DNA of 45,873 bases, taken from assembly GCA_025360565.1 (NCBI GenBank), contig JANYBY010000154.1, positions 1-45,873 of the forward strand, read 5' to 3'. Made by a program: the position numbers and the translations under genes. Shown piece by piece: positions 25,107 to 34,393 of this stretch (position 1 is its first letter; the number at the start of each line of letters is the position of its first letter). This DNA is from Bacteroidota bacterium (GTDB lineage Bacteria > Bacteroidota > Bacteroidia > B-17B0 > Aurantibacillaceae). The notes under the pieces are model-generated. The model had not been told where the DNA came from, did not search any database, and saw nothing but the letters and a program-made list of their open reading frames with translations.

Positions 25107-25163
25107 TTAAATGTGTTTAAAAGAAATGAACGGACGAATGTACTAAAAAATAGCCATCTATTT

Positions 25164-25326
25164 GAAGCCATCTTAAAAGTATGTTTTAGGGTTTTTTTCG
25201 AGTATTTTTTGCTTTAACGAGGCGCGTTTTGAAGTGAATAGCTCAGCGACCTCTTGACGAAAAGGCAACGAAGTTTAAGCGAAAAAGACGAAGGAAAAGC
25301 GCAATAGATATTTTTGAGATGGCTTC
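25164..25326. repeat. Foldback (MITE-like) imperfect palindromic element, ~163 bp
   Basis: Terminal arms GAAGCCATCT (25164-25173) / AGATGGCTTC (25317-25326); internal pairing of TTTTTTGCTTTAAC with GTTTAAGCGAAAAAG and GAGGCGC (25219-25225) with GCGaCCTC (25246-25253). Confidence 0.7.
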
Positions 25327-25736
25327 TAACTAAAATATGGTTTCAAAGCGTTGTAAAACCAATCGGGAATTGCTGTGATCTTATTGTTGGATTTTTGAAC
25401 GAATACAAGTGTAACTTTTCCCGAATTCAATAATTCTCCGGCGGCATTAAAACACTCGTATTCAAAGGGTAATTTAACGCCCTCAGGCATTTGTTTTATG
25501 GAAGTTACAATTGTTACTTCGTCATCGTAAAATGCGGGTTTTTTATAATTAATGGTAAAATCTACCACCGGCAACAAAATGCCTCGCGCTTCAACTTCTT
25601 TATAACTAAAGCCTAATAAGCGTATAGCTTCTACACGGCCAACCTCGTAATATTGCGCATAAACGCCATAATAAGCATAACCCATTTGATCGGTTTCGCC
25701 GTAGCGCACACGTATTTTTATTTCAGATCTTATCAT
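25326..25736 (-). CDS. Acyl-CoA thioesterase, 4HBT/YbgC-like hotdog fold
   Basis: 136 aa; IRVRYGETDQMGYAYYGVYAQYYEVGRVEAIRLLGFSYKEVEARGILLPVVDFTINYKKPAFYDDEV. Confidence 0.9.
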   Translation of the reverse strand: MIRSEIKIRVRYGETDQMGYAYYGVYAQYYEVGRVEAIRLLGFSYKEVEARGILLPVVDFTINYKKPAFYDDEVTIVTSIKQMPEGVKLPFEYECFNAAGELLNSGKVTLVFVQKSNNKITAIPDWFYNALKPYFS

Positions 25737-31195: not shown

Positions 31196-31406
31196 TATTC
31201 CGCACCCGAGTATCACGATCAGTATTTTTCAGATGAATGATAAATACATGGTTAAGTTTGAGGCGGGCATGATGGAGCAGACATTTAAATTTTTGACCTC
31301 AGATGTAAAAAGCGTTGAGGATCTGAAAAAAAAGATCTCGCCAGAATTTATTGAGAACACAAGAAAAAGATTTAACGAAATGTTCTTACAGATGAAAGAT
31401 ATTTAA
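31179..31406 (+). CDS. Hypothetical 75-aa protein
   Basis: ATG start overlapping the previous gene by 17 nt; ends 1 nt into the next start codon. Confidence 0.6.
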   Translation: MRIIDSIPHPSITISIFQMNDKYMVKFEAGMMEQTFKFLTSDVKSVEDLKKKISPEFIENTRKRFNEMFLQMKDI

Positions 31407-33382
31407 TGCAAAGAATTTTTTATCTGATATGTACTTTTTTAATTTGCTCATCATCATTGGCGCAAACAGATTCGGCAGCGTTGGAAAAAGTGGTGAACGC
31501 GGCGGTGGTTAAAGATCCCCAAATTAAATACTTTGTACATGCTTCCGACAGTCTTGAAAAAGTATCAAAATATCTTTATAAGGTTTTTCTTTTAAAGGTA
31601 AACCAAAAGGCAAAAGAAAACGGAGATATATATCTTGAGGGAATGTGCATAAATTACCAAGGCCTTTGGTACTTGAACCTGGGTCTTTATTCCGACGCTT
31701 ACAATTACCTTAACAAAGCACTTCAGCATTTCGAAAAAACAAACAATCAAAAAGGAGTTCTAAATGTGTACACAAATATGGGTAATCTGTATTATTACTT
31801 AAATCAGCCTAAAAAGGCGTTGGAATATTCGTTAAAAGCCCTTGAATTAAATAAGGAGAATTTTAAACGGCCCGAAAATTATTTCAGAGCGGTAAATGTG
31901 TATCTCAATCTGGGAAGCATGTACGGAGTGAGTGGAAACCTAGACCTTGCCCAAAATTGTTTTTTTAAGGCGCTTGAATATTATAAAATATCGCCCGAAA
32001 AAGATACTATTACCCGCGCGTATATACTCAATAATATTGCTGATACATACTTTTATAAAGGCGATGTTGAAAATGCCGAAAAGTATGGGTTAACTGCTTT
32101 AGGTATAAAATTAAAATATGGCACCCTTAACGATAAGGCCGATGGGTATAAAGCGTACGCAACATTTATTGAAAAGAAAAAGCCGAAAGAAGCGCTTGAC
32201 ATGTTTATTAAAGCTGAGAAATTATACGATAAAGATCCCGTTTGCGATAATATGAAGCAAAATTATTTGGAGCTGTCGGAAATAAACGAGAGATTGAAAA
32301 ACTATAGTGAGGCAATGCGATATTTAAAACTGGCCAATAAAACAGAAACGTATCTTGATAGTATTGGAAAAGCGTCTGAAATAGGTATTAAAGAAACCCG
32401 AAATGAATTAAGAAAAAAATCGGTGAATGATAGTTTACAAAATCAAATTCAAATTAAAGTGCGCGATGTAAAGTTAGTCCAAAAAAAACGCGAATCTTAT
32501 CTGGTTATTTTAGTTTTAGTTATTGTTAGCGCTTTTGCCTTTTTATTTTATCGCCGTTTTAAACTATCACAAAAACAAAAAGCCGAAATTGAATTTCAAA
32601 AAAAGATGGTAGATGAAAAGAACAAAGAAATTACCGAAAGTATAAATTACGCCAAAAATGTGCAAGATGCTCTGATGCCAAATGCCGCAGAACTTTCCAT
32701 CCTTTTTCCGGAATCATTTGTTACGTATTTACCAAAAGATATTGTAGCCGGCGATTTTTATTGGTGGCACAATTTTACAGTTAACGGCAAACAAAAAATA
32801 TTGATCGCGGTGGCAGATTGTACAGGCCATGGTGTGCCGGGGGCCATGGTAAGCGTGGTTTGTATTAATGCGTTAAACAGGGTTGTAAACGAATTTAACC
32901 TGCTGGCACCAAATGAGGTTTTAGATAAGGTGAATATTTTGGTGAACGAAACATTCAGTAAAAACAATAAACACATTAACGATGGGATGGATATTTCCTT
33001 ACTTCTCATTGATCACGATAAAATGACGGTTAATTGGTCGGGGGCAAATAACAGATTAATGTATTTTGAAAAGGGTAAATTGATGGAGATAAAACCCGAT
33101 AAGCAATCTATTGGAAAAAGTGATGTTAAGAAACCGTTTGTTGTGCATTCCATTCCTTTAATTAAAGGTACTTCATTTTATTTGTTAAGTGATGGGTTTC
33201 ATGATCAGTTTGGAGGAGAAAGATCAAAAAAAATGGGCTTCGCTAATTTCAGAACGCTATTGCTTGATAATTATGAAAAAACCATGCAAGTGCAGGGGAA
33301 AAATTATGAGGAAGCATTTAAGAAATGGAAAAAAGATCTTGAACAAACCGATGATGTAACGCTGATTGGAATTAAGGTTTGA
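31406..33382 (+). CDS. TPR - transmembrane - coiled coil - SpoIIE/PP2C-type serine phosphatase
   Basis: Signal peptide MQRIFYLICTFLICSSSLAQ; TPRs; TM ESYLVILVLVIVSAFAFLFYRRF; SINYAKNVQDALMP, LPKDIVAGDFYWW, VADCTGHGVPGAMVS, DGMDISLL, LSDGFHDQFGG. Confidence 0.9.
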   Translation: MQRIFYLICTFLICSSSLAQTDSAALEKVVNAAVVKDPQIKYFVHASDSLEKVSKYLYKVFLLKVNQKAKENGDIYLEGMCINYQGLWYLNLGLYSDAYNYLNKALQHFEKTNNQKGVLNVYTNMGNLYYYLNQPKKALEYSLKALELNKENFKRPENYFRAVNVYLNLGSMYGVSGNLDLAQNCFFKALEYYKISPEKDTITRAYILNNIADTYFYKGDVENAEKYGLTALGIKLKYGTLNDKADGYKAYATFIEKKKPKEALDMFIKAEKLYDKDPVCDNMKQNYLELSEINERLKNYSEAMRYLKLANKTETYLDSIGKASEIGIKETRNELRKKSVNDSLQNQIQIKVRDVKLVQKKRESYLVILVLVIVSAFAFLFYRRFKLSQKQKAEIEFQKKMVDEKNKEITESINYAKNVQDALMPNAAELSILFPESFVTYLPKDIVAGDFYWWHNFTVNGKQKILIAVADCTGHGVPGAMVSVVCINALNRVVNEFNLLAPNEVLDKVNILVNETFSKNNKHINDGMDISLLLIDHDKMTVNWSGANNRLMYFEKGKLMEIKPDKQSIGKSDVKKPFVVHSIPLIKGTSFYLLSDGFHDQFGGERSKKMGFANFRTLLLDNYEKTMQVQGKNYEEAFKKWKKDLEQTDDVTLIGIKV

Positions 33383-33385
33383 TTA

Positions 33386-33547
33386 ATACCATTAGCACAT
33401 ATAAAATAGTCCAATCTACTGTTTCTTTTTCATCAATACATCTTCAAAAACCATTTGCATAGCTTGGGCTATGCAAATGGTTTTTATCATCGTCTTGATA
33501 AAAAATAAATGCGCATATTCAGCCTATTTTATATGAGGTAATGGTAT
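33386..33547. repeat. Foldback (MITE-like) palindromic element, 162 bp
   Basis: Terminal ATACCATTA (33386-33394) / TAATGGTAT (33539-33547), CATATAAAATAG / CTATTTTATATG, and central perfect 18-bp stem AAAAACCATTTGCATAGC-TTGG-GCTATGCAAATGGTTTTT (33446-33485). Confidence 0.85.
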
Positions 33548-33580
33548 AAAAGAATTTATCGCTGCCGCGGTGCGAAACTG

Positions 33581-34393
33581 TTATTTGAACCCCAGTTCTT
33601 TTACCAAAACAAAAACACCTACCACAAGGGTAAACCAGCCAAAAGCCGGCCTTAATTTTTTAGAAGAGATCTTATCGGATAATAAACTCCCAATTAATAT
33701 TCCTGCAACGCAAATGCCGGAGATCATTAATAGAAAGAACCAATCAATGGTTTGAGTGCCAATGTTTCCGGTAAAACCTACGAGGGAATTAATTGCAATG
33801 ATACACAAAGAAGTGCCTATCGCTTTCTTAAAATTTAACCGTAAAAAAAAGATCAATACAGGTACAATAATAAATCCGCCACCCGCACCAACAAAGCCCG
33901 TAATGGCCCCTACAGCCACTCCTAATAATATTATGAAAGGAATTCCTAAAGGTGTTCTAAAAAATTCGGCCAACTTAACCTGACTTATTCTGTTAACAGG
34001 CTTTCTTTTTTTAAGCATGCTGTAAGAAGAAATTAAAATTAGGATCCCGAACACAACCATTATCATCGCGTGTTTAGAAATGGCAAATCCTTCGAAACTA
34101 AGATTAACCGGAATGGCGGGCATAATAAATTTACGCATACAAAACACGGTGAGCATAGAGGCAATAGCAAATTGAAAAATAGCCTCGGCGCTTATTTCTC
34201 CCTTTTTTAAATAGGAGAATGCCCCGATTAAAGAGGTAATGCCTACAATGAATAAAGAATAGGTTGTTGCCTCATCGGCGCCGTAACACATTAAATAAAC
34301 TAAAACGGGCACCCCAAGAATACTGCCTCCGCCGCCAATCAATCCAAGAATTAATCCAATAAATAAAAAAGCTATAAAACCTGAAATGATCAA
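33581..34393 (-). CDS. TauE/SafE family sulfite/organosulfonate exporter-like permease
   Basis: [23 protein letters not shown] and [40 protein letters not shown] duplicated motif; TTG start overlapping aspS stop. Confidence 0.9.

Follow-up and report, generated by a model that had tools for sequence, protein, structure and literature searches.

A palindrome between convergent SpoIIE and TauE genes as a probable member of a previously unnamed family of MITEs in uncultured Bacteroidota that duplicate their target in a Tourist-like way

The SpoIIE-TauE gap and its palindrome

The window analysed here is a stretch of 45,873 nucleotides (contig JANYBY010000154.1 of assembly GCA_025360565.1, Bacteroidota bacterium, family Aurantibacillaceae), and its own assembly, designated G000, is 91.6% complete in 433 contigs. 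A SpoIIE-type phosphatase gene and a TauE-like permease gene converge in this window, and the stop-to-stop gap between them (33383-33580, 198 bp) is occupied to 82% by a single imperfect palindrome of 162 bp at 33386-33547 (Table 1). The original prediction had described a near full-length foldback between these convergent genes, with arms of 78 and 80 nt and a perfect 18-bp central stem closed by a TTGG loop, and each of these features was confirmed in the sequence. Folding of the segment 33380-33550 gave -54.6 kcal/mol for the RNA of the plus strand (z -8.3 against dinucleotide shuffles) and -63.8 kcal/mol for that of the minus strand (z -9.9), while the DNA fold had a z of -9.8 against shuffles, and none of the shuffles reached the folding energy of the real sequence. 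The stretch between the 24-nt outer arms and the central stem pairs imperfectly, and its mismatches are kept across the family described below. The predicted limits of the palindrome hold for the pairing but not for the element proper, which begins and ends one base further in, the two end bases belonging to TAA duplications. The SpoIIE stop codon precedes the start of the element by 1-3 bp, and the element has no coding capacity, the list of ORFs containing none of 80 aa or more across the 162 bp.

A second foldback, unrelated and imperfect, was observed in the window at 25161-25329 (GAAGCCATCTTAAAA.../...TTTTGAGATGGCTTC; 35-nt arms, 77% complementary and 99 nt apart), between thioesterase-like and aminotransferase-like genes. 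It matches the covariance model of the family (R1, see below) weakly, at 27.7 bits, and no other copies of it were found among the loci examined.

Table 1. Features of the gap between the SpoIIE-type and TauE-like genes (positions in the window)
Feature	Position	Strand	Basis and remarks
SpoIIE-type phosphatase gene	31406-33382	+	ORF list; name from the original prediction; stop codon 1 bp from the left TAA
Left target-site duplication, TAA	33384-33386	.	Sequence, with flanks of G044 (n=38) and family (n=48) copies; the palindrome also starts at 33386
Outer left arm (terminal inverted repeat), ATACCATTAGCACATATAAAATAG	33386-33409	+	Sequence and fold; pairs with 33524-33547
Element proper (probable MITE), TACCA...TGGTA, 160 bp	33387-33546	+	Orientation of covariance model R1; cmsearch 161.9 bits on +, 88.4 bits on -
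Central hairpin, perfect 18-bp stem (33446-33463/33468-33485), loop TTGG (33464-33467)	33446-33485	.	A5/T5 at the stem base; candidate bidirectional intrinsic terminator
Outer right arm (terminal inverted repeat), CTATTTTATATGAGGTAATGGTAT	33524-33547	+	Sequence and fold; pairs with 33386-33409
Right target-site duplication, TAA	33547-33549	.	Sequence and G044 flanks
TauE-like permease gene, convergent	33581-34393	-	ORF list; name from the original prediction

Copies, target sites and empty sites

The palindrome belongs to a dispersed, multi-copy family. Comparison of the element with its own assembly by blastn returned copies with 96%, 95% and 99% identity (the last being a 71-bp piece at a contig end) as well as diverged copies with 78-82% identity. 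The covariance model R1, built from an alignment (A1) of 29 copies of 159-164 bp each, added further sites, for example on contigs C130, C308 and C234, bringing the assembly to at least 13 dispersed copies. Within the genus, the R1 search identified 16 of 40 genomes as carriers; within the order, 25 of the 87 genomes, distributed over 5 of the 10 genera, were carriers, the 87 genomes all falling in one family, and blastn gave no match in 16 other families, each represented by one genome. When 84,980 species genomes were scanned for an exact pattern, 17 stretches were recovered, every one of them from a MAG that bears the label Bacteroidota, Bacteroidia, Sphingobacteriaceae or Chryseobacterium gleum; the Chryseobacterium gleum label is probably wrong. 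The viral, plasmid and phage collections contained no significant similarity to the element, and no paper on its family was found in the literature searched, subscription journals being mostly outside that search.

In the congener G044, the arm pattern gave 249 hits, corresponding to about 125 copies (a reversed control pattern gave 1 and 2 hits per strand). Most of the 38 copies read with their flanks are 98-100% identical to each other while the flanks are mostly unrelated, so that the boundaries of the element are exact, and the amplification in this genome is recent, a transposition burst. The element runs from TACCA to TGGTA and is bounded by a direct 3-bp duplication, TNA, which is identical on both sides in 32 of these 38 copies. 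Base -1 equals base +1 in 34 of them (permutation mean 14.5, maximum 24 in 10,000), position -2 is T in 37 and position +2 is A in 36, and the outer context, with C or T at -3 in 33 copies and G or A at +3 in 30, extends the target to YTNAR. All four bases occur in the middle of TNA, which is therefore a true direct duplication. Across the whole family, identical TNA flanks were present in 32 of the 48 copies with intact ends. The window copy is flanked by TAA at either end, and one copy carries compensated ends (GCACC/GGTGC). In G002, a copy (L042:1964-2124) has inserted into what is likely the hairpin of an intrinsic terminator (CCTCTCC...TGAGAGG) and has TGA at either flank.

Empty sites were found both within and between genomes. 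Several G044 copies lie in other repeats of the same genome, whose uninterrupted copies represent paralogous empty sites with one TNA, as in CTTTAGAATAAAA versus the filled CTTTA-element-TTAGAATAAAA (also given as CTTTAGAATAAAATA versus CTTTA-element-TTAGAATAAAATA) and in a second case at L151 (ATAACTTAACTCATAG / CATATAACTTAACTCATAG). At the orthologous position, the convergent SpoIIE-TauE pair is present in G006, G019 and G021 with the element missing from the gap, and in G012 the pair encloses a small gene, again without the element; this comparison rests on the loci with a SpoIIE neighbour, the remaining TauE loci, which showed none in the available stretch, being uninformative. The palindrome is neither single-copy nor conserved at this locus in all relatives, the combination that the original prediction had named as the mark of a local structure. 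The SpoIIE-TauE gap of G006 (contig C12, L080) is filled with another kind of repeat (TTTATCCTGAG..CCGTCGAAGGAATGTTTGC), arranged in tandem copies of about 74 bp, and shorter versions of this repeat occupy the gaps of G019 and G021.

Genomic context, terminator role and derivatives

The 95 insertions that were classified comprise 41 in convergent, 43 in codirectional and 11 in divergent gaps, and a simple ORF call placed none of them within a gene. Because convergent gaps alternate with divergent ones along a chromosome, near-equal numbers of the two would be expected. The insertions are clearly biased to gene 3' ends, in counts that derive from crude ORF calls and are unadjusted for gap length. 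Folded alone, the central hairpin reaches -25.3 kcal/mol on one strand and -25.8 kcal/mol on the other (z about -8), and it has A/U runs at its base; a simple terminator scan did not list it. Judging from structure and position, this A/U-flanked hairpin probably also terminates transcription in both directions at the window site, where, so close to the SpoIIE stop codon, it may serve, or be tolerated, as a two-way terminator. A mobile element residing at gene 3' ends would in this way bring along a hairpin that could turn into a transcription terminator. On contig C46 of G044 (L217:1731-2999), the last codons of a glycosyltransferase-like ORF are supplied by a truncated element.

Shortened and extended forms were also observed. 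Two loci of G044 (L238 and L246) contain derivatives of 59-60 bp that consist of the ends only, flanked by TAA/TAA and TTA/TTA duplications, in which the deletion joins short CTTTT repeats, and the same genome carries a variant of 220 bp. Derivatives of 105 bp, without the left core and the central hairpin, are present at two sites in one MAG (L230:1294-1398 and L236:4427-4531). The existence of these 59-60-bp and 105-bp forms, which keep their ends, shows that the complete core is not needed for an element to persist.

Nature of the element and its mobiliser

We consider it highly probable that the palindrome belongs to a family of non-autonomous DNA transposons (MITEs), whose mobility in trans would be due to a DDE transposase with an IS5/PIF-Harbinger-like choice of target. 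The family combines terminal inverted repeats with fixed ends, target-site duplications, dispersed copies with corresponding empty sites and a lack of coding capacity, which are the attributes of a MITE. The original prediction had left the choice between a non-autonomous mobile element and a structured RNA, and the dispersed copies, the TNA duplications, the empty sites and the absence from the gap of three relatives support the former. The copies show that this element of about 160 bp inserts at TNA, preferably within YTNAR, duplicating those 3 bp, and that it has spread within and between species, with recent amplification in at least one. A DDE-type enzyme is implied by the direct duplication of 3 bp, which Y1 enzymes would not be expected to produce. 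The DDE transposase, acting in trans, would bind both ends and cut with a 3-bp stagger, and its assignment to the IS5/PIF-Harbinger (PHIS) type is suggested by the 3-bp target of TNA type.

The evidence also bears on explanations in which the palindrome arose or moved differently. Evolution in place, as an intrinsic terminator or a regulatory RNA serving the SpoIIE/TauE pair, would account for a central hairpin that is strong on both strands and for a position between convergent genes immediately after a stop codon, but near-identical copies are dispersed beside unrelated genes, the same gap lacks the element in three relatives and target duplications are present; as an origin this explanation is already contradicted and barely credible, surviving solely as a secondary role. 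The near full-length palindrome, together with the Y1 transposases encoded in G000 and in many congeners, would suit a REP/PATE-like sequence moved through a single-stranded hairpin by a Y1 (HUH) transposase of IS200/IS605 or RAYT type. Palindromes of the REP/RAYT or IS200-IS605 kind have no target duplication and have a Y1 partner, whereas here 3 bp with a variable middle base are directly duplicated, and the copy-rich genomes G016 and G024 have no Y1 match. On account of the duplication and the Y1 absence in these two genomes we rejected a Y1 or RAYT mobiliser, and this mode of movement is highly improbable; the RNA-model hits near Y1 genes are likewise weak, with the exception of a MITE on contig C96 of G000 that lies about 2.2 kb away from a Y1 gene. 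ERIC (IRU), RUP and Correia/NEMIS are palindromic MITEs of 100-200 bp with TA at their ends and stable stem-loop transcripts, and RUP inserts at TA (PMC2229807). With these elements and with YPAL the family shares being short, palindromic, non-coding and mobile, and its 5'-TA ends, A+T richness, palindromic form and intergenic location correspond to the general profile given in the same paper, as expected of a Tc1/IS630-type MITE with a TA duplication. Unlike in ERIC, RUP and Correia, the base outside the terminal A/T is also duplicated (34 of 38 copies), making the duplicated unit TNA rather than TA, and the copy with compensated ends also argues against membership of this type, which appears very unlikely.

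Readings centred on the folded form deserve somewhat more weight. A structured RNA with a functional transcript, for which mobility would be incidental, is consistent with the consensus fold of 49 pairs, 30 of which show changes on both sides, and with a covariation score of 0.375, compared with 0.115 after shuffling and no more than 0.099 with slid partners. Conservation is highest in the terminal TACCA and in parts of the core (CTTTTTCATCAATAC.., CATCGTC..GATAAAAAATAA), while arm positions 8-25 vary most, yet change together, the outer arms differing among subfamilies and remaining complementary. This covariation is no proof of selection on folding, because terminal inverted repeats bound by one transposase at both ends would give the same pattern in the absence of any RNA. 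Among 22 subfamily consensuses, mismatches in the outer stem are 32 AC versus 8 GT, which favours the minus strand as the one that tolerates wobble pairs when single-stranded, but in the central stem the asymmetry is reversed (18 GT versus 2 AC), and we rejected it as proof of an RNA since the two stems indicate opposite strands. Moreover, no Rfam family matched at its gathering score, the best sub-threshold hits being far below theirs, and the 59-60-bp and 105-bp derivatives lack most of the core. The structured RNA offered by the original prediction is accordingly kept as an improbable alternative. It is also unlikely, with slightly better prospects, that mobility or persistence depends on a folded form (cruciform, single-stranded DNA or RNA) and not on a fixed terminal sequence; an enzyme or host factor may read structure, because the outer arms covary and stay paired and the more conserved, imperfectly paired core is retained.

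As a MITE family with a Tourist-like target duplication, the element is best filed as previously unnamed, although the kind of element is well known. Tourist/NuwaII, other eukaryotic PIF-Harbinger (PHIS) MITEs and the bacterial IS5 group are likewise short, non-coding, bounded by terminal inverted repeats and flanked by a 3-bp duplication of TNA type, and the YTNAR context resembles the target C|TNA|G preferred by NuwaII elements of the PHIS superfamily (PMC4482050). YPAL/RU-2, the Yersinia palindromic sequences, are also intergenic and duplicate their target sites, with a length of 168 bp (PMC2229807), but differ in having duplications of 3 to 26 bp and internal inverted repeats, in not being A+T-rich and in lacking TA ends. 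A Bacteroidota MITE from Porphyromonas gingivalis differs in containing a minisatellite (PMC4596501), none of which was seen in the present element.

The exact boundaries, the target rule (YTNAR with a 3-bp duplication) and a searchable model are thereby available for a MITE family of uncultured Bacteroidota, and the covarying arms with their conserved core offer a way to distinguish protein binding from folding as the force that maintains the ends of MITEs. The approximately 125 mostly near-identical copies of G044 mark a burst recent enough that its enzyme should be findable. No transposase sharing the TACCA...TGGTA ends was found in G044 by arm searches and DDE family searches. Two arm searches of this genome that excluded MITE interiors returned deletion derivatives of 59-60 bp as well as diverged copies and solitary ends, next to which no transposase gene was identified, and 20 sampled places with arms lacking an obvious partner were nearly all ordinary MITE copies, the rest being diverged, truncated or solitary ends. 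G000 itself has no match to DDE_Tnp_1, DDE_Tnp_1_2, HTH_Tnp_4 or DDE_Tnp_4. IS5-like transposases (HTH_Tnp_4 with DDE_Tnp_4) are present in only 3 of the 40 congeners (G002, G014 and G044), all of them carriers, and these elements were considered as the autonomous form and rejected, their ends being of the GACCTCTT type, different from TACCA, where both could be read (G014 and G044). Given the negative outcome of the test for shared ends, we do not claim membership of an IS5/PHIS-derived family. An IS1380-like transposase (Pfam DDE_Tnp_1_4) on contig C112 of G044 (L189:970-2163) was also set aside as a candidate: its gene directly follows the left half of a MITE, and the abrupt end of the MITE sequence there gives the appearance of an IS that has inserted into the MITE.
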